Source: Eutreptiella sp. 'Long Island Sound 2002' (Eukaryota; Euglenozoa; Euglenophyceae; Eutreptiales; Eutreptiaceae). From it: a stretch of DNA of 64,000 nucleotides. Where the stretch lies: the NCBI GenBank assembly GCA_964036045.1, contig CAXIWF010000662.1, forward strand, positions 100,582 through 164,581. The letters run 5' to 3'. Of the stretch, positions 3,001 to 59,500 are shown in pieces (the stretch's first letter is position 1; every line of letters starts with the position of its first letter). A program made the position numbers and the translations under genes. Below the pieces are notes generated by a model. The model was not told the DNA's origin, did not search any database, and worked only from the letters and a program-made list of their open reading frames with translations.

Positions 3001-3785
3001 TTTTCTGAGAATTTTCCGAGAATTTTCCGAGAATTTTCCGAGAATTTTCCGAGAATTTTCCGAGAATTTTCCGAGAATTTTCCGAGAATTTTCCGAGAAT
3101 TTTCTGACAATTTTCCGAGAATTTTCCGAGAATTTTCCGAGAATTTTCCGAGAATTTTCCGAGAGTTTTCTGGGAATTTTCCGAGAATTTTCTGAGAATT
3201 TTCCGAGAATTTTCCGAGAATTTTCCGAGAATTTTCCGAGAATTTTCCGAGAATTTTCCGAGAATTTTCCGAGAATTTTCTGAGAATTTTCTGAGAATTT
3301 TCCGAGAATTTTCCGAGAATTTTCCGAGAATTTTCCGAGAATTTTCGGAGAATTTTCCGAGAATTTTCCGAGAATTTTCTGAGAATTTTCCGAGAATTTT
3401 CCGAGAATTTTCCGAGAATTTTCCGAGAATTTTCCGAGAATTTTCCGAGAATTTTCCGAGAATTTTCTGGGAATTTTCCGAGAATTTTCCGAGAATTTTC
3501 CGAGAATTTTCCGAGAATTTTCCGAGAATTTTCTGGGAATTTTCCGAGAATTTTCTGAGAATTTTCCGAGAATTTTCCGAGAATTTTCCGAGAATTTTCC
3601 GAGAATTTTCCGAGAATTTTCCGAGAATTTTCCGAGAATTTTCCGAGAATTTTCTGAGAATTTTCCGAGAATTTTCCGAGAATTTTCCGAGAATTTTCCG
3701 AGAATTTTCCGAGAATTTTCCGAGAATTTTCCGAGAATTTTCCGAGAATTTTCCGAGAATTTTCCGAGAATTTTCCGAGAATTTT
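1..3785 (+). repeat. Left flank: satellite modules of a separate family
   Basis: This stretch lies left of the giant repeat and contains no TTAA landmark. It has TCAA landmarks at about 423, 1136 and 2446, each followed by an AGGATTTTTCC variant and an ACGA variant; the first two also carry AGGTTCC (about 528 and 1228). CCCAG monomers (about 904, 1324, 2224, 2620, 2950) are more frequent here than elsewhere. GCG variants at about 1268, 2571 and 2895 each head a similar run of monomers. A 9-bp monomer (TTTTCCAAG then TTTTCTGAG) sits near 470 and a 10-mer near 2409. I find no counterpart of this stretch just left of copy B. Confidence 0.8.
423..1136 (+). repeat. About 715-bp higher-order module (left flank)
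   Basis: The interval between the TCAA landmarks at 423 and 1136 is about 65 monomers. Both ends show the same landmark order: TCAA, two canonical monomers, AGGATTTTTCC, ACGA, then AGGTTCC about 90-105 bp after the TCAA. A similar spacing of about 725 bp separates paired AGGTTCC landmarks in segments S1 and S2 (7938/8664 and 10809/11534), so a block of about 65 monomers appears to be a recurring intermediate level of the hierarchy. Confidence 0.6.
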
Positions 3786-6745
3786 CTGGGAATTTTCCGA
3801 GAATTTTCTGAGAATTTTCCGAGAATTTTCCGAGAATTTTCCGAGAATTTTCCGAGAATTTTCCGAGAATTTTCCGAGAATTTTCCGAGAATTTTCCGAG
3901 AATTTTCTGAGAATTTTCTGAGAATTTTCCGAGAATTTTCCGAGAATTTTCGGAGAATTTTCCGAGAATTTTCCGAGAATTTTCCGAGAATTTTCCGAGA
4001 ATTTTCTGGGAATTTTCCGAGAATTTTCTGAGAATTTTCCGAGAATTTTCTGGGAATTTTCCGAGAATTTTCTGAGAATTTTCGGAGAATTTTCTGAGAA
4101 TTTTCCGAGAATTTTCCGACGATTTTCTGAGAATTTTCCGAGAATTTTCTGAGAATTTTCCGAGAATTTTCCGAGAATTTTCCGAGAATTTTCCGAGAAT
4201 TTTCCGAGAATTTTCCGTCAATTTTCCGAGAATTTTCCGAGAATTTTCCAGGATTTTTCCGAGAATTTTCTGAGAATTTTCCGAGAATTTTCCGACGATT
4301 TTCTGAGAATTTTCCGAGAAGGTTCCGAGAATTTTCCGACAATTTTCCGAGAATTTTCCGAGAATTTTCCGAGAATTTTCCGAGAATTTTCCGAGAATTT
4401 TCCGAGAATTTTCCGAGAATTTTCCGAGAATTTTCTGGGAATTTTCCGAGAATTTTCTGAGAATTTTCCGAGAATTTTCCGAGAATTTTCCGAGAATTTT
4501 CTGAGAATTTTCCGAGATTTTTCCGAGAATTTTCTGAGAATTTTCCGAGAATTTTCCGAGTATTTTCCGAGAATTTTCCGAGAATTTTCCGAGAATTTTC
4601 CGAGAATTTTCCGAGAATTTTCCGAGAATTTTCCGAGAATTTTTTGGGAATTTTCCGAGAATTTTCTGAGAATTTTCCAAGAATTTTCCGAGAATTTTCC
4701 GAGAATTTTCCGAGAATTTTCTGAGAATTTTCTGAGAATTTTCCGAGAATTTTCCGAGAATTTTCCGAGGATTTTCCGAGAATTTTCCGAGAATTTTCCG
4801 AGAATTTTCTGAGAATTTTCCGAGAATTTTCCGAGAATTTTTCGAGAATTTTCTGAGAATTTTCCGAGAATTTTCCGAGAATTTTCCGAGAATTTTCCGA
4901 GAATTTTCCGAGAATTTTCCGAGAATTTTCCGAGAATTTTCCGAGAATTTTCCGAGAATTTTCCGAGAATTTTCCGAGAATTTTCCGAGAATTTTCCGAG
5001 AATTTTCTGGGAATTTTCCGAGTATTTTCTGAGAATTTTCCGAGAATTTTCCGAGAATTTTCCGAGAATTTTCCGAGAATTTTCCGAGAATTTTCCGAGA
5101 ATTTTCCGAGAATTTTCTGAGAATTTTCCGAGAATTTCCCGAGAATTTTCCGAGAATTTTCCGAGAATTTTCCGAGAATTTTCCGAGAATTTTCCGAGAA
5201 TTTTCCGAGAATTTTCTGGGAATTTTCCGAGAATTTTCCGAGAATTTTCCGAGAATTTTCCGAGAATTTTCCGAGAATTTTCTGGGAATTTTCCGAGAAT
5301 TTTCTGAGAATTTTCCGAGAATTTTCCGAGAATTTTCCGAGAATTTTCCGAGAATTTTCCGAGAATTTTCCGAGAATTTTCCGAGAATTTTCCGAGAATT
5401 TTCTGAGAATTTTCCGTCAATTTTCCGAGAATTTTCCGAGAATTTTCCGAGAATTTTCCGAGAATTTTCTGGGAATTTTCCGAGAATTTTCTGAGAATTT
5501 TCCGAGAATTTTCCGAGAATTTTCCGAGAATTTTCCGAGAATTTTCCGAGAATTTTCCGAGAATTTTCCGAGAATTTTCCGAGAATTTTCTGAGAATTTT
5601 CTGAGAATTTTCCGAGAATTTTCCGAGAATTTTGCGAGAATTTTCCGAGAATTTTCCGAGAATTTTCCGAGAATTTTCCGAGAATTTTCCGAGAATTTTC
5701 TGAGAATTTTCCGAGAATTTTCCGAGAATTTTCCGAGAATTTTCCGAGAATTTTCCGAGAATTTTCCGAGAATTTTCCGAGAATTTTCCGAGAATTTTCC
5801 GAGAATTTTCCGAGAATTTTCCGACAATTTTCCGAGAATTTTCCGAGAATTTTCCGAGAATTTTCCGAGAATTTTCCGAGAATTTTCCGAGAATTTTCCG
5901 AGAATTTTCCGAGAATTTTCTGGGAATTTTCCGAGAATTTTCTGAGAATTTTCCGAGAATTTTCCGAGAATTTTCCGAGAATTTTCTGAGAATTTTCCGA
6001 GATTTTTCCGAGAATTTTCTGAGAATTTTCCGAGAATTTTCCGAGAATTTTCCGAGAATTTTCCGAGAATTTTCCGAGAATTTTCCGAGAATTTTCCGAG
6101 AATTTTCCGAGAATTTTCCGAGAATTTTTTGGGAATTTTCCGAGAATTTTCTGAGAATTTTCCAAGAATTTTCCGAGAATTTTCCGAGAATTTTCCGAGA
6201 ATTTTCTGAGAATTTTCTGAGAATTTTCCGAGAATTTTCCGAGAATTTTCCGAGAATTTTCCGAGAATTTTCCGAGAATTTTCCGAGAATTTTCTGAGAA
6301 TTTTCCGAGAATTTTCCGAGAATTTTTCGAGAATTTTCTGAGAATTTTCCGAGAATTTTCCGAGAATTTTCCGAGAATTTTCCGAGAATTTTCCGAGAAT
6401 TTTCCGAGAATTTTCCGAGAATTTTCCGAGAATTTTCCGAGAATTTTCCGAGAATTTTCCGAGAATTTTCCGAGAATTTTCCGAGAATTTTCTGGGAATT
6501 TTCCGAGAATTTTCTGAGAATTTTCCGAGATTTTTCCGAGATTTTTCCGAGAATTTTCCGAGAATTTTCCGAGAATTTTCCGAGAATTTTCCGAGAATTT
6601 TCCGAGAATTTTCTGAGAATTTTCCGAGAATTTCCCGAGAATTTTCCGAGAATTTTCCGAGAATTTTCCGAGAATTTTCCGAGAATTTTCCGAGAATTTT
6701 CCGAGAATTTTCCGAGAATTTTCTGGGAATTTTCCGAGAATTTTC
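3785..6745 (+). repeat. Segment S0 (copy A): start of giant repeat to first TTAA
   Basis: Landmarks in order: CGGAG 3951 and 4083, ACGA near 4119, TCAA 4215, AGGATTTTTCC near 4250, ACGA 4294, AGGTTCC 4320, ACAA 4339, GAGATTTTTCC 4515, GAGTATT 4560, TTTTTTGGG 4643, CCAAG 4678, GAGGATT 4768, TTTTTCGAG 4830, GAGTATT 5021, CCCGAG 5137, TCAA 5415, GCG 5633, ACAA 5822, TTTTTTGGG 6125, CCAAG 6164, TTTTTCGAG 6325, two GAGATTTTTCC near 6530-6545, CCCGAG 6631, TTAA 6745. The tail series (TTTTTTGGG, CCAAG, TTTTTCGAG, CCCGAG) occurs twice, ending once without and once with a TTAA. Confidence 0.8.
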
Positions 6746-9594
6746 CGTTAATTTTCCGAGAATTTTCCGAGAATTTTCCGAGAATTTTCTGGGAATTTTC
6801 CTAGAATTTTCTGAGAATTTTCCGAGAATTTTCCGAGAATTTTCCGAGAATTTTCCGAGAATTTTCCGAGAATTTTCCGAGAATTTTCCGAGAATTTTCT
6901 GAGAATTTTCCGTCAATTTTCCGAGAATTTTCCGAGAATTTTCCGAGAATTTTCCGAGAATTTTCTGGGAATTTTCCGAGAATTTTCTGAGAATTTTCCG
7001 AGAATTTTCCGAGAATTTTCCGAGAATTTTCCGAGAATTTTCCGAGAATTTTCCGAGAATTTTCCGAGAATTTTCCGAGAATTTTCTGAGAATTTTCTGA
7101 GAATTTTCCGAGAATTTTCCGAGAATTTTGCGAGAATTTTCCGAGAATTTTCCGAGAATTTTCCGAGAATTTTCCGAGAATTTTCCGAGAATTTTCTGAG
7201 AATTTTCCGAGAATTTTCCGAGAATTTTCCGAGAATTTTCCGAGAATTTTCCGAGAATTTTCCGAGAATTTTCCGAGAATTTTCCGAGAATTTTCTGGGA
7301 ATTTTCCGAGAATTTTCCGAGAATTTTCCGAGAATTTTCCGACAATTTTCCGACAATTTTCTGGGAATTTTCCGAGAATCTTCTGAGAATTTTCCGAGAA
7401 TTTTCCGAGAATTTTCCGAGAATTTTCCGAGAATTTTCCGAGAATTTTCCGAGAATTTTCCGAGAATTTTCCGAGAATTTTCCGAGAATTTTCCGAGAAT
7501 TTTCCGAGAATTTTCCGAGAATTTTCCGAGAATTTTCCGAGAATTTTCTGGGAATTTTCTGAGAATTTTCCGAGAATTTTCCGAGAATTTTCCGAGAATT
7601 TTCCGAGAATTTTCCGAGAATTTTCCGAGAATTTTCCGAGAAGTTTCTGAGAATTTTCCGAGAATTTTCCGAGAATTTTCCGAGAATTTTCTGGGAATTT
7701 TCCGAGAATTTTCTGAGAATTTTCCGAGAATTTTCTGAGAATTTTCCGAGAATTTTCCGAGAATTTTCTGAGAATTTTCCGAGAATTTTCCGAGAATTTT
7801 CCGAGAATTTTCCGAGAATTTTCCGAGTTTTTTCCGAGAATTTTCCGAGAATTTTCCGAGAATTTTCCGAGAATTTTCCGAGAATTTTCCGAGAATTTTC
7901 TGAGAATTTTCCGAGAATTTTCCGACGATTTTCTGAGAAGGTTCCGAGAATTTTCCGACAATTTTCCGAGAATTTTCCGAGAATTTTCCGAGAATTTTCC
8001 GAGAATTTTCCGAGAATTTTCCGAGAATTTTCCGAGAATTTTCCGAGAATTTTCTGGGAATTTTCCGAGAATTTTCTGAGAATTTTCCGAGAATTTTCCG
8101 AGAATTTTCCGAGAATTTTCTGAGAATTTTCCGAGATATTTCCGAGAATTTTCTGAGAATTTTCCGAGAATTTTCCGAGAATTTTCCGAGAATTTTCCGA
8201 GAATTTTCCGAGAATTTTCCGAGAATTTTCCGAGAATTTTCTGGGAATTTTCCGAGAATTTTCTGAGAATTTTCCGAGAATTTTCCGAGAATTTTCCGAG
8301 AATTTTCCGAGAATTTTCCGAGAATTTTCCGAGAATTTTCCGAGAAGTTTCTGAGAATTTTCCGAGAATTTTCCGAGAATTTTCCGAGAATTTTCTGGGA
8401 ATTTTCCGAGAATTTTCTGAGAATTTTCCGAGAATTTTCTGAGAATTTTCCGAGAATTTTCCGAGAATTTTCTGAGAATTTTCCGAGAATTTTCCGAGAA
8501 TTTTCCGAGAATTTTCCGAGAATTTTCCGAGAATTTTCCGAGAATTTTCCGAGAATTTTCCGAGAATTTTCCGAGAATTTTCCGAGAATTTTCCAGGAAT
8601 TTTCCGAGAATTTTCTGAGAATTTTCCGAGAATTTTCCGACGATTTTCTGAGAATTTTCCGAGAAGGTTCCGAGAATTTTCCGACAATTTTCCGAGAATT
8701 TTCCGAGAATTTTCCGAGAATTTTCCGAGAATTTTCCGAGAATTTTCCGAGAATTTTCCGAGAATTTTCCGAGAATTTTCTGGGGATTTTGCGAGAATTT
8801 TCTGAGAATTTTCCGAGAATTTTCCGAGAATTTTCCGAGAATTTTCTGAGAATTTTCCGAGATATTTCCGAGAATTTTCTGAGAATTTTCCGAGAATTTT
8901 CCGAGAATTTTCCGAGAATTTTCCGAGAATTTTCCGAGAATTTTCCGAGAATTTTCCGAGAATTTTCCGAGAATTTTCCGAGAATTTTTTGGGAATTTTC
9001 CGAGAATTTTCTGAGAATTTTCCAAGAATTTTCCGAGAATTTTCCGAGAATTTTCCGAGAATTTTCTGAGAATTTTCTGAGAATTTTCCGAGAATTTTCC
9101 GAGAATTTTCCGAGAATTTTCCGAGAATTTTCCGAGAATTTTCCGAGAATTTTCTGAGAATTTTCCGAGAATTTTCCGAGAATTTTTGGAGAATTTTCTG
9201 AGAATTTTCCGAGAATTTTCCGAGAATTTTCCGAGAATTTTCCGAGAATTTTCCGAGAATTTTCCGAGAATTTTCCGAGAATTTTCCGAGAATTTTCCCA
9301 GAATTTTCCGAGAATTTTCCGAGAATTTTCCGAGAATTTTCCGAGAATTTTCTGGGAATTTTCCGAGAATTTTCTGAGAATTTTCCGAGAATTTTCCGAG
9401 ATTTTTCCGAGAATTTTCCGAGAATTTTCCGAGAATTTTCCGAGAATTTTCCGAGAATTTTCCGAGAATTTTCTGAGAATTTTCCGAGAATTTCCCGAGA
9501 ATTTTCCGAGAATTTTCCGAGAATTTTCCGAGAATTTTCCGAGAATTTTCCGAGAATTTTCCGAGAATTTTCTGGGAATTTTCCGAGAATTTTC
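6745..9594 (+). repeat. Segment S1 (copy A), 2849 bp = 259 monomers
   Basis: Landmarks in order: TTAA 6745, TCAA 6910, GCG 7130, two ACAA near 7341-7352, AATC 7378, AAGTTTCTGAG 7641, GTTTTTT 7826, ACGA 7925, AGGTTCC 7938, ACAA 7958, GATATT 8134, AAGTTTCTGAG 8344, CCAGGAATT 8594, ACGA 8640, AGGTTCC 8664, ACAA 8683, GCG 8789, GATATT 8861, TTTTTTGGG 8987, CCAAG 9023, TTTTTGGAG 9186, CCCAG 9298, CCCGAG 9492. The ACGA to AGGTTCC interval at 7925 is one monomer shorter than at every other site. S1 is followed directly by a near-identical sister, S2. Confidence 0.85.
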
Positions 9595-12443
9595 CGTTAA
9601 TTTTCCGAGAATTTTCCGAGAATTTTCCGAGAATTTTCTGGGAATTTTCCGAGAATTTTCTGAGAATTTTCCGAGACTTTTCCGAGAATTTTCCGAGAAT
9701 TTTCCGAGAATTTTCCGAGAATTTTCCGAGAATTTTCCGAGAATTTTCTGAGAATTTTCCGTCAATTTTCCGAGAATTTTCCGAGAATTTTCCGAGAATT
9801 TTCCGAGAATTTTCTGGGAATTTTCCGAGAATTTTCTGAGAATTTTCCGAGAATTTTCCGAGAATTTTCCGAGAATTTTCCGAGAATTTTCCGAGAATTT
9901 TCCGAGAATTTTCCGAGAATTTTCCGAGAATTTTCTGAGAATTTTCTGAGAATTTTCCGAGAATTTTCCGAGAATTTTGCGAGAATTTTCCGAGAATTTT
10001 CCGAGAATTTTCCGAGAATTTTCCGAGAATTTTCCGAGAATTTTCTGAGAATTTTCCGAGAATTTTCCGAGAATTTTCCGAGAATTTTCCGCGAATTTTC
10101 CGCGAATTTTCCGAGAATTTTCCGAGAATTTTCCGAGAATTTTCCGAGAATTTTCTGGGAATTTTCCGAGAATTTTCCGAGAATTTTCCGAGAATTTTCC
10201 GAGAATTTTCCGACAATTTTCTGGGAATTTTCCGAGAATCTTCTGAGAATTTTCCGAGAATTTTCCGAGAATTTTCCGAGAATTTTCCGAGAATTTTCCG
10301 AGAATTTTCCGAGAATTTTCCGAGAATTTTCCGAGAATTTTCCGAGAATTTTCCGAGAATTTTCCGAGAATTTTCCGAGAATTTTCCGAGAATTTTCTGG
10401 GAATTTTCTGAGAATTTTCCGAGAATTTTCCGAGAATTTTCCGAGAATTTTCCGAGAATTTTCCGAGAATTTTCCGAGAATTTTCCGAGAATTTTCCGAG
10501 AAGTTTCTGAGAATTTTCCGAGAATTTTCCGAGAATTTTCCGAGAATTTTCTGGGAATTTTCCGAGAATTTTCTGAGAATTTTCCGAGAATTTTCTGAGA
10601 ATTTTCCGAGAATTTTCCGAGAATTTTCTGAGAATTTTCCGAGAATTTTCCGAGAATTTTCCGAGAATTTTCCGAGAATTTTCCGAGTTTTTTCCGAGAA
10701 TTTTCCGAGAATTTTCCGAGAATTTTCCGAGAATTTTCCGAGAATTTTCCGAGAATTTTCTGAGAATTTTCCGAGAATTTTCCGACGATTTTCTGAGAAT
10801 TTTCCGAGAAGGTTCCGAGAATTTTCCGACAATTTTCCGAGAATTTTCCGAGAATTTTCCGAGAATTTTCCGAGAATTTTCCGAGAATTTTCCGAGAATT
10901 TTCCGAGAATTTTCCGAGAATTTTCTGGGAATTTTCCGAGAATTTTCTGAGAATTTTCCGAGAATTTTCCGAGAATTTTCCGAGAATTTTCTGAGAATTT
11001 TCCGAGATATTTCCGAGAATTTTCTGAGAATTTTCCGAGAATTTTCCGAGAATTTTCCGAGAATTTTCCGAGAATTTTCCGAGAATTTTCCGAGAATTTT
11101 CCGAGAATTTTCTGGGAATTTTCCGAGAATTTTCTGAGAATTTTCCGAGAATTTTCCGAGAATTTTCCGAGAATTTTCCGAGAATTTTCCGAGAATTTTC
11201 CGAGAATTTTCCGAGAAGTTTCTGAGAATTTTCCGAGAATTTTCCGAGAATTTTCCGAGAATTTTCTGGGAATTTTCCGAGAATTTTCTGAGAATTTTCC
11301 GAGAATTTTCTGAGAATTTTCCGAGAATTTTCCGAGAATTTTCTGAGAATTTTCCGAGAATTTTCCGAGAATTTTCCGAGAATTTTCCAAGAATTTTCCG
11401 AGAATTTTCCGAGAATTTTCCGAGAATTTTCCGAGAATTTTCCGAGAATTTTCCGAGAATTTTCCAGGAATTTTCCGAGAATTTTCTGAGAATTTTCCGA
11501 GAATTTTCCGACGATTTTCTGAGAATTTTCCGAGAAGGTTCCGAGAATTTTCCGACAATTTTCCGAGAATTTTCCGAGAATTTTCCGAGAATTTTCCGAG
11601 AATTTTCCGAGAATTTTCCGAGAATTTTCCGAGAATTTTCTGGGAATTTTGCGAGAATTTTCTGAGAATTTTCCGAGAATTTTCCGAGAATTTTCCGAGA
11701 ATTTTCTGAGAATTTTCCGAGATATTTCCGAGAATTTTCTGAGAATTTTCCGAGAATTTTCCGAGAATTTTCCGAGAATTTTCCGAGAATTTTCCGAAAA
11801 TTTTCCGAGAATTTTCCGAGAATTTTCCGAGAATTTTCCGAGAATTTTTTGGGAATTTTCCGAGAATTTTCTGAGAATTTTCCAAGAATTTTCCGAGAAT
11901 TTTCCGAGAATTTTCCGAGAATTTTCTGAGAATTTTCTGAGAATTTTCCGAGAATTTTCCGAGAATTTTCCGAGAATTTTCCGAGAATTTTCCGAGAATT
12001 TTCCGAGAATTTTCTGAGAATTTTCCGAGAATTTTCCGAGAATTTTTCGAGAATTTTCTGAGAATTTTCCGAGAATTTTCCGAGAATTTTCCGAGAATTT
12101 TCCGAGAATTTTCCGAGAATTTTCCGAGAATTTTCCGAGAATTTTCCGAGAATTTTCCGAGAATTTTCCGAGAATTTTCCGAGAATTTTCCGAGAATTTT
12201 CTGGGAATTTGCCGAGAATTTTCTGAGAATTTTCCGAGAATTTTCCGAGAATTTTCCGAGAATTTTCCGAGAATTTTCCGAGAATTTTCCGAGAATTTTC
12301 CGAGAATTTTCCGAGAATTTTCTGAGAATTTTCCGAGAATTTCCCGAGAATTTTCCGAGAATTTTCCGAGAATTTTCCGAGAATTTTCCGAGAATTTTCC
12401 GAGAATTTTCCGAGAATTTTCTGGGAATTTTCCGAGAATTTTC
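9594..12443 (+). repeat. Segment S2 (copy A), 2849 bp, tandem sister of S1
   Basis: Same length in monomers (259) and the same landmark series as S1: TCAA 9759, GCG 9978, ACAA 10212, AATC 10237, AAG 10502, GTTTTTT 10686, ACGA 10785, AGGTTCC 10809, GATATT 11007, AAG 11217, ACGA 11509, AGGTTCC 11534, GCG 11649, GATATT 11722, GAAAATT 11797, TTTTTTGGG 11847, CCAAG 11882, TTTTTCGAG 12043, a TTTGCCGAG monomer near 12210, CCCGAG 12331. The GCG-to-GATATT stretch is displaced from that of S1 by 2860 bp. Differences from S1 include two CGCGAATT-type monomers near 10090 and the GAAAATT monomer. Confidence 0.85.
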
Positions 12444-15400
12444 CGTTAATTTTCCGAGAATTTTCCGAGAATTTTCCGAGAATTTTCTGGGAATTTTCTG
12501 AGAATTTTCCGAGAATTTTCCGAGAATTTTCCGAGAATTTTCCGAGAATTTTCCGAGAATTTTCCGAGAATTTTCCGAGAATTTTCCGAGAATTTTCCGA
12601 GAATTTTCTGAGAATTTTCCGTCAATTTTCCGAGAATTTTCCGAGAATTTTCCGAGAATTTTCCGAGAATTTTCTGGGAATTTTCCGAGAATTTTCTGAG
12701 AATTTTCCGAGAATTTTCCGAGAATTTTCCGAGAATTTTCCGAGAATTTTCCGAGAATTTTCCGAGAATTTTCCGAGAATTTTCCGAGAATTTTCTGAGA
12801 ATTTTCTGAGAATTTTCCGAGAATTTTCCGAGAATTTTGCGAGAATTTTCCGAGAATTTTCCGAGAATTTTCCGAGAATTTTCCGAGAATTTTCTGAGAA
12901 TTTTCCGAGAATTTTCCGAGAATTTTCCGAGAATTTTCCGAGAATTTTCCGAGAATTTTCCGAGAATTTTCCGAGAATTTTCCGAGAATTTTCTGGGAAT
13001 TTTCCGAGAATTTTCCGAGAATTTTCCGAGAATTTTCCGAGAATTTTCCGACAATTTTCTGGGAATTTTCCGAGAATTTTCTGAGAATTTTCCGAGAATT
13101 TTCCGAGAATTTTCCGAGAATTTTCCGAGAATTTTCCGAGAATTTTCCGAGAATTTTCCGAGAATTTTCCGAGAATTTTCCGAGAATTTTCCGAGAATTT
13201 TCCGAGAATTTTCCGAGAATTTTCGAGAATTTTCCGAGAATTTTCTGGGAATTTTCCGAGAATTTTCTGAGAATTTTCCGAGAATTTTCCGAGAATTTTC
13301 CGAGAATTTTCCGAGAATTTTCCGAGAATTTTCCGAGAATTTTCCGAGAATTTTCTGAGAATTTTCCGAGAATTTTCCGAGAATTTTCCGAGAATTTTCC
13401 GAGAATTTTCTGGGAATTTTCCGAGAATTTTCTGAGAATTTTCCGAGAATTTTCCGAGAATTTTCCGAGAATTTTCTGAGAATTTTCCGAGAATTTTCCG
13501 AGAATTTTCCGAGAATTTTCCGAGAATTTTCCGAGAATTTTCCGAGAATTTTCCGAGAATTTTCCGAGAATTTTCCGAGAATTTTCCGAGAATTTTCTGG
13601 GAATTTTCCGAGAATTTTCTGAGAATTTTCCGAGAATTTTCCGAGAATTTTCCGAGAATTTTCCGAGAATTTTCTGAGAATTTTCTGAGAATTTTCCGAG
13701 AATTTTCCGAGAATTTTCCGAGAATTTACCGAGAATTTTCCGAGAATTTTCCGAGAATTTTCCGAGAATTTTCTGAGAATTTTCCGAGAATTTTCCGAGA
13801 ATTTTCCGAGAATTTTCCGAGAATTTTCCGAGAATTTTCCGAGAATTTTCCGAGAATCTTCCGAGAATTTTCCGAGAATTTTCCGAGAATTTTCCCGGAA
13901 TTTTCCGAGAATTTTCTGAGAATTTTCCGAGAATTTTCCGAGAATTTTCCGAGAATTTTCCGAGAATTTTCCGAGAATTTTCCGAGAATTTTCCGAGAAT
14001 TTTCTGAGAATTTTCCGAGAATTTTCCGAGAATTTTCCGAGAATTTCCCGAGAATTTTCCGGGAATTTTCCGAGAATTTTCCGAGAATTTTCCGAGAATT
14101 TTCTGGGAATTTTCCGAGAATTTTCCGAGAATTTTCCGAGAATTTTCCGAGAATTTTCTGGGAATTTTCCGAGAATTTTCTGAGAATTTTCCGAGAATTT
14201 TCCGAGAATTTTCCGAGAATTTTCCGAGAATTTTCCGAGAATTTTCCGAGAATTTTCCGAGAATTTTCCGAGAATTTTCTGAGCATTTTCCGAGAATTTT
14301 CCGAGAATTTTCCGAGAATTTTCCGAGAATTTTCCGTCAATTTTCCGAGAATTTTCCGAGAATTTTCCAGGATTTTTCCGAGAATTTTCTGAGAATTTTC
14401 CGAGAATTTTCCGACGATTTTCTGAGAATTTTCCGAGAAGGTTTCGAGAATTTTCCGAGAATTTTCCGAGAATTTTCCGAGAATTTTCCGAGAATTTTCC
14501 GAGAATTTTCCGAGAATTTTCCGAGAATGTTCCGAGAATTTTCCGAGAATTTTCTGGGAATTTTCCGAGAATTTTCTGAGAATTTTCCGAGAATTTTCCG
14601 AGAATTTTCCGAGAATTTTCTGAGAATTTTCCGAGAATTTTCCGAGAATTTTCCGAGAATTTTCCGAGAATTTTCCGAGAATTTTCCGAGAATTTTCCGA
14701 GAATTTTCCGAGAATTTTCCGAGAATTTTCCGAGAATTTTCCGAGAATTTTCCGAGAATTTTCCGAGAATTTTCCGAGAATTTTCTGAGAATTTTCCGAG
14801 AATTTTCCGAGAATTTTCCGAGAATTTTCTGAGAATTTTCCGAGAATTTTCCGAGAATTTTCCGAGAATTTTCCGAGAATTTTCCGAGAATTTTCCGAGA
14901 ATTTTCCGAGAATTTTCCGAGAATTTTCCGAGAATTTTCCGAGAATTTTCCGAGAATTTTCTGGGAATTTTCCGAGAATTTTCTGAGAATTTTCCGAGAA
15001 TTTTCCGAGAATTTTCCGAGAATTTTCCGAGAATTTTCCGAGAATTTTCCGACAATTTTCCGAGAATTTTCCGAGAATTTTCCGAGAATTTTCCGAGAAT
15101 TTTCCGAGAATTTTCCGAGAATTTTCCGAGAATTTTCCGAGAATTTTCTGGGAATTTTCCGAGAATTTTCTGAGAATTTTCCGAGAATTTTCCGAGAATT
15201 TTCCGGGAATTTTCTGAGAATTTTCCGAGATTTTTCCGAGAATTTTCTGAGAATTTTCCGAGAATTTTCCGAGAATTTTCCGAGAATTTTCCGAGAATTT
15301 TCCGAGAATTTTCCGAGAATTTTCCGAGAATTTTTTGGGAATTTTCCGAGAATTTTCTGAGAATTTTCCAAGAATTTTCCGAGAATTTTCCGAGAATTTT

Positions 15401-48420: not shown

Positions 48421-51400
48421 TTTCTGAGAATTTTCCGAGAATTTTCCGAGAATTTTCCGAGAATTTTCCGAGAATTTTCTGAGAATTTTCTGAGAATTTT
48501 CCGAGAATTTTCCGAGAATTTTCCGAGAATTTTCCGAGAATTTTCCGAGAATTTTCCGAGAATTTTCCGAGAATTTTCTGAGAATTTTCCGAGAATTTTC
48601 CGAGAATTTTCCGAGAATTTTCCGAGAATTTTCCGAGAATTTTCCGAGAATTTTCCGAGAATTTTCCGAGAATTTTCCGAGAATTTTCCGAGAATTTTCC
48701 GAGAATTTTCTGGGAATTTTCCGAGAATTTTCTGAGAATTTTCCGAGAATTTTCCGAGAATTTTCCGAGAATTTTCCGAGAATTTTCCGAGAATTTTCCG
48801 AGAATTTTCCGAGAATTTTCTGAGAATTTTCCGAGAATTTTCCGAGAATTTTCCGAGAATTTCCCGAGAATTTTCCGGGAATTTTCCGAGAATTTTCCGA
48901 GAATTTTCCGAGAATTTTCTGGGAATTTTCCGAGAATTTTCCGAGAATTTTCCGAGAATTTTCCGAGAATTTTCCGAGAATTTTCTGGGAATTTTCCGAG
49001 AATTTTCTGAGAATTTTCCGAGAATTTTCCGAGAATTTTCCGAGAATTTTCCGAGAATTTTCCGAGAATTTTCCGAGAATTTTCCGAGAATTTTCTGAGC
49101 ATTTTCCGAGAATTTTCCGAGAATTTTCCGAGAATTTTCCGAGAATTTTCCGAGAATTTTCCGTCAATTTTCCGAGAATTTTCCGAGAATTTTCTAGGAT
49201 TTTTCCGAGAATTTTCTGAGAATTTTCCGAGAATTTTCCGACGATTTTCTGAGAATTTTCCGAGAAGGTTTCGAGAATTTTCCGAGAATTTTCCGAGAAT
49301 TTTCCGAGAATTTTCCGAGAATTTTCCGAGAATTTTCCGAGAATTTTCCGAGAATTTTCCGAGAATTTTCCGAGAATTTTCCGAGAATTTTCTGGGAATT
49401 TTCCGAGAATTTTCTGAGAATTTTCCGAGAATTTTCCGAGAATTTTCCGAGAATTTTCTGAGAATTTTCCGAGAATTTTCCGAGAATTTTCCGAGAATTT
49501 TCCGAGAATTTTCCGAGAATTTTCCGAGAATTTTCCGAGAATTTTTCCGAGAATTTTCCGAGAATTTTCCGAGAATTTTCCGAGAATTTTCCGAGAATTT
49601 TCTGAGAATTTTCCGAGAATTTTCCGAGAATTTTCCGAGAATTTTCTGAGAATTTTCCGAGAATTTTCCGAGAATTTTCCGAGAATTTTCCGAGAATTTT
49701 CCGAGAATTTTCCGAGAATTTTCCGAGAATTTTCCGAGAATTTTCCGAGAATTTTCTGGGAATTTTCCGAGAATTTTCTGAGAATTTTCCGAGAATTTTC
49801 CGAGAATTTTCCGAGAATTTTCCGAGAATTTTCCGAGAATTTTCCGAGAATTTTCCGAGAATTTTCTGAGAATTTTCCGAGAATTTTCCGAGAATTTTCC
49901 GAGAATTTCCCGAGAATTTTCCGAGAATTTTCCGAGAATTTTCCGAGAATTTTCCGAGAATTTTCTGGGAATTTTCCGAGAATTTTCCGAGAATTTTCCG
50001 AGAATTTTCCGAGAATTTTCCGAGAATTTTCTGGGAATTTTCCGAGAATTTTCTGAGAATTTTCCGAGAATTTTCTGAGAATTTTCCGAGAATTTTCCGA
50101 GAATTTTCCGAGAATTTTCCGAGAATTTTCCGAGAATTTTCCGTCAATTTTCCGAGAATTTTCCGAGAATTTTCCAGGATTTTTCCGAGAATTTTCTGAG
50201 AATTTTCCGAGAATTTTCCGACGATTTTCTGAGAATTTTCCGAGAAGGTTTCGAGAATTTTCCGAGAATTTTCCTAGAATTTTCCGAGAATTTTCCGAGA
50301 ATTTTCCGAGAATTTTCCGAGAATTTTCCGAGAATTTTCCGAGAATTTTCCGAGAATTTTCTGGGAATTTTCCGAGAATTTTCTGAGAATTTTCCGAGAA
50401 TTTTCCGAGAATTTTCCGAGAATTTTCTGAGAATTTTCGGAGAATTTTCCGAGAATTTTCCGAGAATTTTCCGAGAATTTTCCGAGAATTTTCCGAGAAT
50501 TTTCCGAGAATTTTCCGAGAATTTTCCGAGAATTTTCCGAGAATTTTCCGAGAATTTTCTGGGAATTTTCCGAGAATTTTCTGAGAATTTTCCGAGAATT
50601 TTCCGAGAATTTTCCGAGAATTTTCTGAGAATTTTCCGAGAATTTTCCGAGAATTTTCTGAGAATTTTCCGAGAATTTTCCGAGAATTTTCCGAGAATTT
50701 TCCGAGAATTTTCCCAGAATTTTCCGAGAATTTTCCGAGAATTTTCTGGGAATTTTCCGAGAATTTTCTGAGAATTTTCCGAGTAATTTCCGAGAATTTT
50801 CCGAGAATTTTCTGAGAATTTTCCGAGAATTTTCCGAGAATTTTCCGAGAATTTTCCGAGAATTTTCCGAGAATTTTCCGAGAATTTTCCGAGAATTTTC
50901 CGAGAATTTTCCGAGAATTTTCCGAGAATTTTCCGAGAATTTTCCGAGAATTTTCCGAGAGTTTTCTGGGAATTTTCCGAGAATTTTCTGAGAATTTTCC
51001 GAGAATTTTCCGAGAATTTGCCGAGAATTTTCCGAGAATTTTCCGAGAATTTTCCGAGAATTTTCCGAGAATTTTCCGAGAATTTTCTGAGAATTTTCTG
51101 AGAATTTTCCGAGAATTTTCCGAGAATTTTCCGAGAATTTTCCGAGAATTTTCCGAGAATTTTCCGAGAATTTTCCGAGAATTTTCTGAGAATTTTCCGA
51201 GAATTTTCCGAGAATTTTCCGAGAATTTTTCCGAGAATTTTCCGAGAATTTTCCGAGAATTTTCCGAGAATTTTCCGAGAATTTTCTGGGAATTTTCCGA
51301 GAATTTTCCGAGAATTTTCCGAGAATTTTCCGAGAATTTTCCGAGAATTTTCTGGGAATTTTCCGAGAATTTTCTGAGAATTTTCCGAGAATTTTCCGAG

Positions 51401-51935
51401 AATTTTCCGAGAATTTATCGAGAATTTTCCGAGAATTTTCCGAGAATTTTCTGGGAATTTTCCGAGAATTTTCTGAGAATTTTCCGAGAATTTTCTGAGA
51501 ATTTTCCGAGAATTTTCCGAGAATTTTCCGAGAATTTTCCGAGAATTTTCCGAGAATTTTCCGTCAATTTTCCGAGAATTTTCCGAGAATTTTCCAGGAT
51601 TTTTCCGAGAATTTTCTGAGAATTTTCCGAGAATTTTCCGACGATTTTCTGAGAATTTTCCGAGAAGGTTTCGAGAATTTTCCGAGAATTTTCCATGAAT
51701 TTTCCGAGAATTTTCCGAGAATTTTCCGAGAATTTTCCGAGAATTTTCCGAGAATTTTCCGAGAATTTTCCGAGAATTTTCTGGGAATTTTCCGAGAATT
51801 TTCTGAGAATTTTCCGAGAATTTTCCGAGAATTTTCCGAGAATTTTCTGAGAATTTTCCGAGAATTTTCCGAGAATTTTCCGAGAATTTTCCGAGAATTT
51901 TCCGAGAATTTTCCGAGAATTTTCCGAGAATTTTC
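47243..51935 (+). repeat. Segment S6' (copy B), 4692 bp
   Basis: Counterpart of S6, about 300 bp shorter. Landmarks: TCAA 47420, irregular stretch to 48420, CCCGAG and CCGGG near 48861-48876, GAGCATTTT 49099, TCAA 49163, TAGGATTTTTCC 49195, AGGTTTCG 49266, a five-T monomer 49543, CCCGAG 49908, TCAA 50143, AGGTTTCG 50246, a CCTAG monomer 50274, CGGAG 50437, CCCAG 50713, GAGTAATTTCC 50774, GAGAGTTTT 50957, TTTGCCGAG 51018, five-T monomer 51229, TTTATCGAG 51416, TCAA 51563, AGGTTTCG 51666, CCATG 51692. The GAGC-TCAA-TAGG set is present once, against twice in S6. The right-type module at 50774-51416 matches the one at 24403 with an offset of 26371 bp. Confidence 0.82.
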
Positions 51936-53816
51936 CGTTAATTTTCCGAGAATTTTCCGAGAATTTTCCGAGAATTTTCTGGGAATTTTCCGAGAATTTT
52001 CTGAGAATTTTCCGAGAATTTTCCGAGAATTTTCCGAGAATTTTCCGAGAATTTTCCGAGAATTTTCCGAGAATTTTCCGAGAATTTTCCGAGAATTTTC
52101 TGAGAATTTTCCGTCAATTTTCCGAGAATTTTCCGAGAATTTTCCGAGAATTTTCCGAGAATTTTCTGGGAATTTTCCGAGAATTTTCTGAGAATTTTCC
52201 GAGAATTTTCCGAGAATTTTCCGAGAATTTTCCGAGAATTTTCCGAGAATTTTCCGAGAATTTTCCGAGAATTTTCCGAGAATTTTCTGAGAATTTTCTG
52301 AGAATTTTCCGAGAATTTTCCGAGAATTTTGCGACAATTTTCCGAGAATTTTGCGAGAATTTTCCGAGAATTTTCCGAGAATTTTCCGAGAATTTTCTGA
52401 GAATTTTCCGAGAATTTTCCGAGAATTTTCCGAGAATTTTCCGAGAATTTTCCGAGAATTTTCCGAGAATTTTCCGAGAATTTTCCGAGAATTTTCTGGG
52501 AATTTTCCGAGAATTTTCCGAGAATTTTCCGAGAATTTTCCGAGAATTTTCCGACAATTTTCTGGGAATTTTCCGAGAATCTTCTGAGAATTTTCCGAGA
52601 ATTTTCCGAGAATTTTCCGAGAATTTTCCGAGAATTTTCCGAGAATTTTCCGAGAATTTTCCGAGAATTTTCCGAGAATTTTCCGAGAATTTTCCGAGAA
52701 TTTTCCGAGAATTTTCCGAGAATTTTCCGAGAATTTTCTGGGAATTTTCTGAGAATTTTCCGAGAATTTTCCGAGAATTTTCCGAGAATTTTCCGAGAAT
52801 TTTCCGAGAATTTTCCGAGAATTTTCCGAGAATTTTCCGAGAAGTTTCTGAGAATTTTCCGAGAATTTTCCGAGAATTTTCCGAGAATTTTCTGGGAATT
52901 TTCCGAGAATTTTCTGAGAATTTTCCGAGAATTTTCTGAGAATTTTCCGAGAATTTTCCGAGAATTTTCTGAGAATTTTCCGAGAATTTTCCGAGAATTT
53001 TCCGAGAATTTTCCGAGAATTTTCCGAGTTTTTTCCGAGAATTTTCCGAGAATTTTCCGAGAATTTTCCGAGAATTTTCCGAGAATTTTCCGAGAATTTT
53101 CTGAGAATTTTCCGAGAATTTTCCGACGATTTTCTGAGAATTTTCCGAGAAGGTTCCGAGAATTTTCCGACAATTTTCCGAGAATTTTCCGAGAATTTTC
53201 CGAGAATTTTCCGAGAATTTTCCGAGAATTTTCCGAGAATTTTCCGAGAATTTTCCGAGAATTTTCTGGGAATTTTCCGAGAATTTTCTGAGAATTTTCC
53301 GAGAATTTTCCGAGAATTTTCCGAGAATTTTCTGAGAATTTTCCGAGATATTTCCGAGAATTTTCTGAGAATTTTACGAGAATTTTCCGAGAATTTTCCG
53401 AGAATTTTCCGAGAATTTTCCGAGAATTTTCCGAGAATTTTCCGAGAATTTTCTGGGAATTTTCCGAGAATTTTCTGAGAATTTTCCGAGAATTTTCCGA
53501 GAATTTTCCGAGAATTTTCCGAGAATTTTCCGAGAATTTTCCGAGAATTTGCCGAGAAGTTTCTGAGAATTTTCCGAGAATTTTCCGAGAATTTTCCGAG
53601 AATTTTCAGGGAATTTTCCGAGAATTTTCTGAGAATTTTCCGAGAATTTTCTGAGAATTTTCCGAGAATTTTCCGAGAATTTTCTGAGAATTTTCCGAGA
53701 ATTTTCCGAGAATTTTCCGAGAATTTTCCGAGAATTTTCCGAGAATTTTCCGAGAATTTTCCGAGAATTTTCCGAGAATTTTCCGAGAATTTTCTGGGAA
53801 TTTTCCGAGAATTTTC
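51935..53816 (+). repeat. Segment S7' (copy B), 1881 bp = 171 monomers
   Basis: Counterpart of S7, one monomer longer. Landmarks: TCAA 52112, GCGACAATT 52330, GCG 52351, ACAA 52552, AATC 52580, AAG 52843, GTTTTTT 53027, ACGA 53125, AGGTTCC 53155, ACAA 53168, GATATT 53347, TTTTACGAG 53374, TTTGCCGAGAAG 53551, CAGGGAATT 53606. The CCCGAG landmark seen at 27346 in S7 is absent here, and the CCGGG of S7 (26625) is also absent. Confidence 0.8.
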
Positions 53817-56599
53817 CGTTAATTTTCCGAGAATTTTCCGAGAATTTTCCGAGAATTTTCTGGGAATTTTCCGAGAATTTTCTGAGAATTTTCCGAGAAT
53901 TTTCCGAGAATTTTCCGAGAATTTTCCGAGAATTTTCCGAGAATTTTCCGAGAATTTTCCGAGAATTTTCCGAGAATTTTCTGAGAATTTTCCGTCAATT
54001 TTCCGAGAATTTTCCGAGAATTTTCCGAGAATTTTCCGAGAATTTTCTGGGAATTTTCCGAGAATTTTCTGAGAATTTTCCGAGAATTTTCCGAGAATTT
54101 TCCGAGAATTTTCCGAGAATTTTCCGAGAATTTTCCGAGAATTTTCCGAGAATTTTCCGAGAATTTTCCGAGAATTTTCTGAGAATTTTCCGAGAATTTT
54201 CCGAGAATTTTGCGAGAATTTTCCGAGAATTTTCCGAGAATTTTCCGAGAATTTTCCGAGAATTTTCCGAGAATTTTCTGAGAATTTTCCGAGAATTTTC
54301 CGAGAATTTTCCGAGAATTTTCCGAGAATTTTCCGAGAATTTTCCGAGAATTTTCCGAGAATTTTCCGAGAATTTTCTGGGAATTTTCCGAGAATTTTCC
54401 GAGAATTTTCCGAGAATTTTCCGAGAATTTTCCGACAATTTTCTGGGAATTTTCCGAGAATCTTCTGAGAATTTTCCGAGAATTTTCCGAGAATTTTCCG
54501 AGAATTTTCCGAGAATTTTCCGAGAATTTTCCGAGAATTTTCCGAGAATTTTCCGAGAATTTTCCGAGAATTTTCCGAGAATTTTCCGAGAATTTTCCGA
54601 GAATTTTCCGAGAATTTTCCGAGAATTTTCTGGGAATTTTCTGAGAATTTTCCGAGAATTTTCCGAGAATTTTCCGAGAATTTTCCGAGAATTTTCCGAG
54701 AATTTTCCGAGAATTTTCCGAGAATTTTCCGAGAAGTTTCTGAGAATTTTCCGAGAATTTTCCGAGAATTTTCCGAGAATTTTCTGGGAATTTTCCGAGA
54801 ATTTTCTGAGAATTTTCCGAGAATTTTCTGAGAATTTTCCGAGAATTTTCCGAGAATTTTCTGAGAATTTTCCGAGAATTTTCCGAGAATTTTCCGAGAA
54901 TTTTCCGAGTTTTTTCCGAGAATTTTCCGAGAATTTTCCGAGAATTTTCCGAGAATTTTCCGAGAATTTTCCGACGATTTTCTGAGAATTTTCCGAGAAG
55001 GTTCCGAGAATTTTCCGACAATTTTCCGAGAATTTTCCGAGAATTTTCCGAGAATTTTCCGAGAATTTTCCGAGAATTTTCCGAGAATTTTCCGAGAATT
55101 TTCCGAGAATTTTCTGGGAATTTTCCGAGAATTTTCTGAGAATTTTCCGAGAATTTTCCGAGAATTTTCCGAGAATTTTCTGAGAATTTTCCGAGATATT
55201 TCCGAGAATTTTCTGAGAATTTTCCGAGAATTTTCCGAGAATTTTCCGAGAATTTTCCGAGAATTTTCCGAGAATTTTCCGAGAATTTTCCGAGAATTTT
55301 CTGGGAATTTTCCGAGAATTTTCTGAGAATTTTCCGAGAATTTTCCGAGAATTTTCCGAGAATTTTCCGAGAATTTTCCGAGAATTTTCCGAGAATTTTC
55401 CGAGAAGTTTCTGAGAATTTTCCGAGAATTTTCCGAGAATTTTCCGAGAATTTTCTGGGAATTTTCCGAGAATTTTCTGAGAATTTTCCGAGAATTTTCT
55501 GAGAATTTTCCGAGAATTTTCCGAGAATTTTCTGAGAATTTTCCGAGAATTTTCCGAGAATTTTCCGAGAATTTTCCGAGAATTTTCCGAGAATTTTCCG
55601 AGAATTTTCCGAGAATTTTCCGAGAATTTTCCGAGAATTTTCCGAGAATTTTCCGAGAATTTTCCGAGAATTTTCTGAGAATTTTCCGAGAATTTTCCGA
55701 CGATTTTCTGAGAATTTTCCGAGAAGGTTCCGAGAATTTTCCGACAATTTTCCGAGAATTTTCCGAGAATTTTCCGAGAATTTTCCGAGAATTTTCCGAG
55801 AATTTTCTGGGAATTTTCCGAGAATTTTCTGAGAATTTTCCGAGAATTTTCCGAGAATTTTCCGAGAATTTTCTGAGAATTTTCCGAGATATTTCCGAGA
55901 ATTTTCTGAGAATTTTCCGAGAATTTTCCGAGAATTTTCCGAGAATTTTCCGAGAATTTTCCGAGAATTTTCCGAGAATTTTCCGAGAATTTTCCGAGAA
56001 TTTTCCGAGAATTTTTTGGGAATTTTCCGAGAATTTTCTGAGAATTTTCCAAGAATTTTCCGAGAATTTTCCGAGAATTTTCCGAGAATTTTCTGAGAAT
56101 TTTCTGAGAATTTTCCGAGAATTTTCCGAGAATTTTCCGAGAATTTTCCGAGAATTTTCCGAGAATTTTCCGAGAATTTTCTGAGAATTTTCCGAGAATT
56201 TTCCGAGAATTTTTCGAGAATTTTCTGAGAATTTTCCGAGAATTTTCCGAGAATTTTCCGAGAATTTTCCGAGAATTTTCCGAGAATTTTCCGAGAATTT
56301 TCCGAGAATTTTCCGAGAATTTTCCGAGAATTTTCCGAGAATTTTCCGAGAATTTTCCGAGAATTTTCCGAGAATTTTCCGAGAATTTTCTGGGAATTTT
56401 CCGAGAATTTTCTGAGAATTTTCCGAGAATTTTCCGAGAATTTTCCGAGAATTTTCCGAGAATTTTCCGAGAATTTTCCGAGAATTTTCTGAGAATTTTC
56501 CGAGAATTTCCCGAGAATTTTCCGAGAATTTTCCGAGAATTTTCCGAGAATTTTCCGAGAATTTTCCGAGAATTTTCTGGGAATTTTCCGAGAATTTTC
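53816..56599 (+). repeat. Segment S8' (copy B), 2783 bp = 253 monomers
   Basis: Counterpart of S8, two monomers longer. Landmarks: TCAA 53993, GCG 54210, ACAA 54434, AATC 54461, AAG 54735, GTTTTTT 54906, ACGA 54973, AGGTTCC 54998, ACAA 55017, GATATT 55196, AAG 55405, ACGA 55699, AGGTTCC 55731, ACAA 55743, GATATT 55870, TTTTTTGGG 56014, CCAAG 56049, TTTTTCGAG 56212, CCCGAG 56509, TTAA 56599. The CGGAG of S8 (28955) and the GATAATTTT (29376) are not shared, so those arose in copy A after the duplication, or were lost here. Confidence 0.82.
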
Positions 56600-59500
56600 C
56601 GTTAATTTTCCGAGAATTTTCCGAGAATTTTCCGAGAATTTTCTGGGAATTTTCTGAGAATTTTCTGAGAATTTTCCGAGAATTTTCCGAGAATTTTCCG
56701 AGAATTTTCCGAGAATTTTCCGAGAATTTTCCGAGAATTTTCCGAGAATTTTCCGAGAATTTTCTGAGAATTTTCCGTCAATTTTCCGAGAATTTTCCGA
56801 GAATTTTCCGAGAATTTTCCGAGAATTTTCTGGGAATTTTCCGAGAATTTTCTGAGAATTTTCCGAGAATTTTCCGAGAATTTTCCGAGAATTTTCCGAG
56901 AATTTTCCGAGAATTTTCCGAGAATTTTCCGAGAATTTTCCGAGAATTTTCTGAGAATTTTCTGAGAATTTTCCGAGAATTTTCCGAGAATTTTGCGAGA
57001 ATTTTCCGAGAATTTTCCGAGAATTTTCCGAGAATTTTCCGAGAATTTTCCGAGAATTTTCTGAGAATTTTCCGAGAATTTTCCGAGAATTTTCCGAGAA
57101 TTTTCCGAGAATTCTCCGAGAATTTTCCGAGAATTTTCCGAGAATTTTCCGAGAATTTTCTGGGAATTTTCCGAGAATTTTCCGAGAATTTTCCGAGAAT
57201 TTTCCGAGAATTTTCCGACAATTTTCTGGGAATTTTCCGAGAATTTTCTGAGAATTTTCCGAGAATTTTCCGAGAATTTTCCGAGAATTTTCCGAGAATT
57301 TTCCGAGAATTTTCCGAGAATTTTCCGAGAATTTTCCGAGAATTTTCCGAGAATTTTCCGAGAATTTTCCGAGAATTTTCCGAGAATTTTCCGAGAATTT
57401 TCCGAGAATTTTCCGAGAATTTTCTGGGAATTTTCCGAGAATTTTCTGAGAATTTTCCGAGAATTTTCCGAGAATTTTCCGAGAATTTTCCGAGAATTTT
57501 CCGAGAATTTTCCGAGAATTTTCCGAGAATTTTCTGAGAATTTTCCGAGAATTTTCCGAGAATTTTCCGAGAATTTTCCGAGAATTTTCTGGGAATTTTC
57601 CGAGAATTTTCTGAGAATTTTCCGAGAATTTTCCGAGAATTTTCCGAGAATTTTCTGAGAATTTTCCGAGAATTTTCCGAGAATTTTCCGAGAATTTTCC
57701 GAGAATTTTCCGAGAATTTTCCGAGAATTTTCCGAGAATTTTCCGAGAATTTTCCGAGAATTTTCCGAGAATTTTCTGGGAATTTTCCGAGAATTTTCTG
57801 AGAATTTTCCGAGAATTTTCCGAGAATTTTCCGAGAATTTTCCGAGAATTTTCTGAGAATTTTCTGAGAATTTTCCGAGAATTTTCCGAGAATTTTCCGA
57901 GAATTTTCCGAGAATTTTCCGAGAATTTTCCGAGAATTTTCCGAGAATTTTCTGAGAATTTTCCGAGAATTTTCCGAGAATTTTCCGAGAATTTTCCGAG
58001 AATTTTCCGAGAATTTTCCGAGAATTTTCCGAGAATTTTCCGAGAATTTTCCGAGAATTTTCCGAGAATTTTCCGAGAATTTTCTGGGAATTTTCCGAGA
58101 ATTTTCTGAGAATTTTCCGAGAATTTTCCGAGAATTTTCCGAGAATTTTCCGAGAATTTTCCGAGAATTTTCCGAGAATTTTCCGAGAATTTTCTGAGAA
58201 TTTTCCGAGAATTTTCCGAGAATTTTCCGAGAATTTCCCGAGAATTTTCCGGGAATTTTCCGAGAATTTTCCGAGAATTTTCCGAGAATTTTCTGGGAAT
58301 TTTCCGAGAATTTTCCGAGAATTTTCCGAGAATTTTCCGAGAATTTTCCGAGAATTTTCTGGGAATTTTCCGAGAATTTTCTGAGAATTTTCCGAGAATT
58401 TTCCGAGAATTTTCCGAGAATTTTCCGAGAATTTTCCGAGAATTTTCCGAGAATTTTCCGAGAATTTTCTGAGCATTTTCCGAGAATTTTCCGAGAATTT
58501 TCCGAGAATTTTCCGAGAATTTTCCGAGAATTTTCCGTCAATTTTCCGAGAATTTTCCGAGAATTTTCTAGGATTTTTCCGAGAATTTTCTGAGAATTTT
58601 CCGAGAATTTTCCGACGATTTTCTGAGAATTTTCCGAGAAGGTTTCGAGAATTTTCCGAGAATTTTCCGAGAATTTTCCGAGAATTTTCCGAGAATTTTC
58701 CGAGAATTTTCCGAGAATTTTCCGAGAATTTTCCGAGAATTTTCCGAGAATTTTCTGGGAATTTTCCGAGAATTTTCTGAGAATTTTCCGAGAATTTTCC
58801 GAGAATTTTCCGAGAATTTTCTGAGAATTTTCCGAGAATTTTCCGAGAATTTTCCGAGAATTTTCCGAGAATTTTCCGAGAATTTTCCGAGAATTTTCCG
58901 AGAATTTTCCGAGAATTTTCCGAGAATTTTCCGAGAATTTTCCGAGAATTTTCCGAGAATTTTCCGAGAATTTTCCGAGAATTTTCCGAGAATTTTCCGA
59001 GAATTTTCCGAGAATTTTCTGAGAATTTTCCGAGAATTTTCCGAGAATTTTCCGAGAATTTTCCGAGAATTTTCCGAGAATTTTCCGAGAATTTTCCGAG
59101 AATTTTCCGAGAATTTTCCGAGAATTTTCTGGGAATTTTCCGAGAATTTTCTGAGAATTTTCCGAGAATTTTCCGAGAATTTTCCGAGAATTTTCCGAGA
59201 ATTTTCCGAGAATTTTCCGAGAATTTTCCGAGAATTTTCTGAGAATTTTCCGAGAATTTTCCGAGAATTTTCCGAGAATTTCCCGAGAATTTTCCGAGAA
59301 TTTTCCGAGAATTTTCCGAGAATTTTCCGAGAATTTTCTGGGAATTTTCCGAGAATTTTCCGAGAATTTTCCGAGAATTTTCCGAGAATTTTCCGAGAAT
59401 TTTCTGGGAATTTTCCGAGAATTTTCTGAGAATTTTCCGAGAATTTTCTGAGAATTTTCCGAGAATTTTCCGAGAATTTTCCGAGAATTTTCCGAGAATT

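Follow-up and report, generated by a model that had tools for sequence, protein, structure and literature searches.

A 26.6-kb tandem duplication in an 11-bp satellite array described as a patchwork of adjacent block duplications

Alpha satellite consists of monomers of about 171 bp, and its higher-order units are present in many tandem copies. The unequal crossover model put forward by Smith in 1976 is said to predict nested, locally homogenised, in-register block duplications. In satellites of short monomers long units have also been reported: the part of one paper considered here gives 3.6 kb for the unit of DYZ1, cited there as a tandem array of pentanucleotides, and 1.77 kb for the HSat2 unit (PMC4022460). 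In Arabidopsis, the relevant part of another paper describes higher-order repeats in arrays of telomeric variants of about 7 bp, whose expansion and contraction it explains by slippage and unequal crossing-over (PMC11406999). A sequence-only reading of the array studied here had set a 26.6-kb block of 11-bp monomers against known higher-order satellites, and it passed over DYZ1, the HSat2 unit and the Arabidopsis arrays as precedents.

The window analysed comprises the 64,000 bases at the right end of contig C659 (164,581 bp; window C659:100582-164581), which belongs to an assembly of 2.28 Gb in 2205 contigs. According to TRF the window is a single array with a period of 11, 5818.8 copies and 93% matches, and it holds no N bases. 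The exact consensus TTTTCCGAGAA is found in 4337 of 5818 monomers, followed in abundance by TTTTCTGAGAA (n = 659) and TTTTCTGGGAA (n = 268). TTAA occurs at 18 sites, the same number as the copies of monomer TTTTCCGTTAA. The ratio of observed to expected CpG is 2.39 in the window, with one CpG per consensus monomer; the commonest variant monomer (n = 659) is the C-to-T form of this CpG, and the G-to-A form is rare (n = 19). Table 1 lists the features discussed below.

Table 1 Features of the satellite array, in window coordinates (C659 coordinates where given)
Feature	Position	Strand	Basis or remark
11-bp satellite array, consensus TTTTCCGAGAA	1..64000	+	right end of C659 array
Copy A of 26.6-kb duplicated block	3738..30600	+	monomer-string self-alignment
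Copy B of 26.6-kb duplicated block	30392..56990	+	monomer-string self-alignment
26.6-kb junction, 19 monomers (209 bp), putative exchange point	30392..30600	+	identical to A start and B end
Same 19-monomer stretch at A left boundary	3738..3946	+	
Same 19-monomer stretch at B right boundary	56782..56990	+	
9.4-kb adjacent duplication, first copy	42524..52073 (C659:143105-152654)	+	self-alignment
9.4-kb duplication, second copy, extends past B end	51920..61424 (C659:152501-162005)	+	self-alignment
9.8-kb adjacent duplication, right part of second copy, overlaps A left boundary	1..7807	+	C659:88813-98622, 98601-108388
2.86-kb nested tandem duplication in A	5938..13076 (C659:106519-110819 / 109379-113657)	+	
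Same 2.86-kb nested duplication in B	32570..39686	+	self-alignment
Irregular-monomer stretch of copy B	44419..49418	+	19/69 of the array's irregular-length monomers

On C659 the array begins near position 16,762 and extends over 147.8 kb. Its variant make-up differs between C659:16,762-57,000 and C659:57,000-164,581, where TTTTCTGGGAA amounts to less than 1% and to 3-5% of the monomers, respectively, as if two array generations abutted. A period of 17 monomers (187 bp, nucleosome-like) was enriched 1.94-fold in the right part and 0.79-fold in the left, with the multiples 34 and 51 near 1; since the enrichment is confined to the right part and the multiples stay near 1, a small repeat of 187 bp was dropped. 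DNA curvature from phased AATTTT tracts was also considered, using wedge values and 4000 letter permutations of the consensus; the consensus lies within the top 10.5% of permutations, which is too weak to build on. The array is preceded, in C659:1-16761, by another satellite with a 169-bp unit, which is interrupted by a GC-rich element with Pfam matches to reverse transcriptase and RVT_3 and 38 retroelement protein matches. By our own reading of a neighbouring frame, for which there was no Pfam hit, this element resembles a DIRS element.

The array was cut into monomers and the monomer strings were aligned, because plain dot-plots are uninformative owing to the runs of consensus monomers. The best self-alignment is that of copies A and B (2386 monomers, 97.2% identical, score 2450), which have 573 of 639 non-consensus monomers in common. 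At the nucleotide level they differ by 58 substitutions in 26,232 compared bases (about 0.22%). Whole monomers were gained or lost at 64 places; 54 of these involve single monomers and 35 consensus monomers only. Three token shuffles of the first 2500 against the next 2500 monomers scored 17-21, compared with 2131 for the same stretches unshuffled. Under the scoring used for the whole contig, A scored 2569 against B. Against B, scores were 22-438 for six 26.6-kb segments taken elsewhere in the array, 41-616 for nine versions of A with shuffled blocks and 18.5 for A in reversed order. A chance origin of the likeness between A and B is thus ruled out by the shuffle and segment controls. The sequence-only reading had proposed two head-to-tail units of about 26.6 kb with the same ordered segments, and had named an alignment identity no better than that between random segments of the array as one outcome that would count against them; the alignment and its controls bear the two units out. 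The limits it gave (3785, 30437/30438 and 56830) are correct to about 50-210 bp.

The TTAA landmarks pair nine to nine in order between the copies. The intervals that had been quoted for them were reproduced, and two intervals that had not been quoted differ more (2707/2746 and 4995/4692). In the last of these intervals, where the difference is 303 bp, A on balance contains more monomers than B does, and also more than C (the second 9.4-kb copy). A and B share, as copies of a higher-order unit do, an ordered series of variants over many monomers. That a whole block of more than 26 kb arose by copying, as had been suggested, is supported by the two ordered head-to-tail blocks.

One stretch of 19 monomers is identical at all three boundaries of the pair, including its four variant monomers, and A and B overlap by these 209 bp. 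In the whole array there are 20 occurrences of this stretch. Among 18,777 random position pairs, 0.07% lie in an exact match of this length with at least four variants. Outside the block the 40-monomer flanks are unlike (1 of 13 variants shared before it, 0 of 22 after it), so that the pair has the form of a tandem segmental duplication, with two adjacent direct copies and differing outer flanks. No irregular monomer is present at the 26.6-kb junction and the 11-bp register is kept. Likewise, among the 12 best-scoring adjacent pairs, 11 have junctions without an irregular monomer within 30 bp, and the 12th has one near the edge. Homology shared between outer ends and junction, with the register kept, is clear for the 26.6-kb pair, and several other pairs show little of it or none. 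The overlap of the 9.4-kb pair is 14 monomers long and includes three variants; in four other pairs it measures 1, 2, 6 and 9 monomers and contains no variant, and of the nine listed pairs three do not overlap (gaps 0, 0 and +99). In-register junctions together with a shared stretch are the trace expected of homologous exchange between misaligned arrays.

Self-alignment of the whole contig, with all 13,437 monomers, yielded 174 strict islands, of which 19 are adjacent pairs. When the lags were permuted 1000 times, adjacent pairs averaged 7.1 in number and never exceeded 18. The 19 pairs are not all independent, as at least one 1.5-kb pair is counted twice, having been copied by a later duplication. 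Their sizes are 26.6, 9.8, 9.4, 5.2, 3.5, 2.5, 2.3, 2.2 and 1.8 kb and smaller, down to 0.76 kb, and substitutions within pairs range from 0 to 0.47%. The array therefore seems better described as a patchwork of many adjacent two-copy duplications of 0.76 to 26.6 kb. Judged by these alignments, A and B are a genuine feature of an ordinary type, larger than any of the many other tandem duplications that keep the register. On chromosome C1, 20 kb sampled from the satellite form a patchwork of the same sort, in which the nested blocks are smaller and the variants are its own; TTTTCCGTTAA and TTTTCTGGGAA are missing there. The arrays therefore appear locus-specific, at least between C659 and the C1 sample.

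Nested pairs allow the relative age of some events to be read directly from the assembled monomers, just as the two copies, their adjacency, their common register and the shared boundary stretch are. For the 2.86-kb duplication, present as A1 and A2 in A and as B1 and B2 in B, differing monomers number 9 between A1 and B1, 2 between A2 and B2 and 15-18 in the four other pairs. As A1-B1 and A2-B2 are closest, this duplication clearly precedes the 26.6-kb event. At the block's left end the differing monomers number 1 for P-Q and 7 for both Q-B and P-B, and by this count the 9.8-kb duplication is shown to follow the 26.6-kb event. The 9.4-kb triple is less regular. Its raw whole-monomer identities are 0.955 (A-B), 0.976 (A-C) and 0.958 (B-C), and the raw informative positions (14 A=C, 10 A=B, 4 B=C) are contrary to the expected order. 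Irregular-length monomers, which make up 9 of the 14 A=C and 1 of the 4 B=C positions, were set aside by hand, leaving 10 A=B, 5 A=C and 3 B=C. A 9.4-kb event older than the 26.6-kb event is thus supported, but the support is thin.

In the sequence-only reading the 26.6-kb block was the unit of a higher-order repeat. In the strict sense such a unit is reiterated many times in tandem, and in C659 the full block is present in two copies, in an assembly that does not cover this satellite completely. C659 stops 7 kb past B, inside the array, and further copies of a longer series might lie beyond this end or be unassembled; the landmark motif is moreover found on C7 and C1878, as would be expected if parts of a related array stood elsewhere. 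The 7 kb to the right of B, however, do not go on as a third copy, since they score at most 41 when aligned with the start of A or of B, and whole-contig alignment detected no further full copy in the 88 kb of satellite that precede A. A 4-kb piece of the left end of the block recurs at C659:94575-98622, through the 9.8-kb duplication; the search of the parent contig for further units, which had been recommended, thus returned this piece and no third full copy. As judged by one 44-mer and the landmark motif, the unit is also unique genome-wide: the unit-specific 44-mer has two places in the 2.28-Gb assembly, one in A and one in B, and the landmark motif as a 44-mer has 39 places (25 on C659, 8 on C7 at 79.59-79.72 Mb, 6 on C1878), where the spacings on C7 (G000:C7:79590374-79721798) and C1878 are unlike those on C659. 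With two full copies in 147.8 kb and no series in the flanking array, we consider a true higher-order repeat improbable. Ordered landmarks that pair off are insufficient for such a call, and copy number needs testing.

The best explanation, and in our view the probable one, is that an 11-bp euglenid satellite grows by in-register unequal exchange, with the 26.6-kb pair as the largest event in C659. Misaligned sister arrays would exchange unequally but in register, or be repaired by an equivalent copying process that depends on homology, and each event would leave one adjacent second copy of arbitrary block size (0.76-26.6 kb in C659). For the large pair, 209-bp stretches of 19 monomers about 26.6 kb apart would have misaligned and recombined, leaving A and B with a hybrid junction between them; the pair would later have been altered by the gain and loss of single monomers, by point changes and by the 9.8-kb duplication across the left end. 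We infer the mechanism of exchange as well as the presence of both copies in the cell. Rather unlikely, though the strongest competitor, is an assembly artefact in which haplotypes or overlapping contigs of one locus were joined head to tail by the assembler. A divergence of 0.22% is compatible with heterozygosity between haplotypes, the pair exceeds common long reads, C659 is small and ends inside the array, and the C1 array meets N at two sampled points, which indicates that the assembly struggles with this satellite. Furthermore, 19 of the 69 irregular-length monomers of the C659 array cluster in C659:145-150 kb, within copy B (no other 5-kb bin has more than 7), probably a low-quality, poorly polished patch of consensus; this patch does not touch the 26.6-kb junction. 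Against a joining artefact, the window is free of N, like adjacent pairs occur down to 0.76 kb, a size that single long reads could presumably span, and the order of events is coherent across nested pairs, except for the raw counts of the 9.4-kb triple. Copying of blocks by extrachromosomal circles or by rolling-circle replication with reinsertion is known for satellites generally and would also give head-to-tail copies, but it would tend towards several equal units, whereas the listed pairs are two-copy and of many unit sizes; we regard it as very improbable here.

The exact dimer has 1,044,382 occurrences in the assembly (580,138 + 464,244), which extrapolates to about 21 Mb at the density of C659. 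The landmark motif shared by C7, C1878 and C659 suggests that C659 and C1878 may be unplaced parts of one chromosome-specific array belonging to chromosome C7. On C1 the first listed dimer place is at 148.05 Mb, with none before it if the listing is in position order, and the start of the array adjoins an A-rich minisatellite. Of the points sampled on C1, those at 148.09-148.20 Mb are satellite and those at 148.3 and 148.4 Mb read N; the minisatellite is present at 148.5 Mb, in the other orientation, and again at 148.7 Mb. A broader scheme can be imagined, in which each chromosome carries one localised, chromosome-specific and perhaps centromeric block of the satellite, and in which exchange at a dispersed 209-bp sub-motif drives duplications of kb to tens of kb, leaving arrays whose past events can be put in dated order. 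We hold this scheme to be doubtful; the one indication of a putative centromeric role is the localised block on C1 (from 148.05 Mb).

Contigs C1 to C27 measure 20.5-201 Mb, and at the starts of C2-C27 (n = 26) CCCTAA repeats were found at 10 and N at 5. For E. gracilis, the part of a genome paper considered here gives 46 chromosomes of 22.7-121.4 Mb (PMC11252322). COX1 (PF00115) has 86 matches in the assembly, on C42, C3 and about 70 other contigs, most of the matches being on small ones. The best match of the COX1 at locus L060 is PDB 8iuf_C1 with 721 bits (next best 435), and 8IUF is listed as an 'Eg-' supercomplex in the part considered of a paper on Euglena (PMC10884005). Over the first aligned columns L060 is identical to Euglena at 204 of 306 positions (67%), and the same type of COX1 is present at L059 (95%) and L061 (100%). 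The chromosome-size contig C3 (190 Mb) contains COX1 pieces on both strands with 92-99% identity (L082, G000:C3:130919801-130922500), which look as though mitochondrial DNA had recently been inserted into the nuclear genome and rearranged. These euglenid-type pieces tie the chromosomes to the same organism as that COX1, and by this marker the genome is a euglenid's, though, given the chromosome sizes of E. gracilis, probably that of another species. A vertebrate or hagfish origin, which telomeres of the TTAGGG type had suggested, was dropped in view of this COX1; the part considered of a further paper has no 11-bp family (PMC10461843). A different COX1 on the 50-kb contig C42 is readable if TGA codes for an amino acid, and its best match is PDB 7jro; it probably stems from a second organism in the assembly.

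Among the matches listed by a literature search on euglenids and satellites, no description of satellite TTTTCCGAGAA was found, which is far from proof of absence. Searches for the letters of the monomer (13 of 22 rotations, both strands) gave no satellite paper by title among the matches listed, and '11-bp monomer' and like phrases gave only papers unrelated by title. Exact 33-mer scans of genome_contigs and viral_contigs, sets that may leave out the window's own genome, gave 0 matches each.

What C659 offers is a clean record of the growth of a short-monomer satellite, with block sizes, breakpoints, register and relative ages from one contig. Its value lies in this legible history and in the euglenid lineage, and no new class of repeat is involved. 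It resembles alpha-satellite higher-order repeats in that blocks are more similar than monomers are, but there the unit has many tandem copies and here two. With human DYZ1 and HSat2-3, as far as the cited part of that paper describes them, it has in common long units within a satellite of short monomers (PMC4022460); their unit, however, defines the whole array, whereas the C659 block has two copies and exceeds the DYZ1 unit in length about sevenfold. The telomeric variants of Arabidopsis, within the account considered here, likewise show blocks of short monomers duplicated in place, in units of a few monomers to short blocks, compared with thousands of monomers in the C659 block (PMC11406999). 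Nothing at C659 contradicts a model of the Smith type, and the locus can be regarded as an example of it with datable steps.
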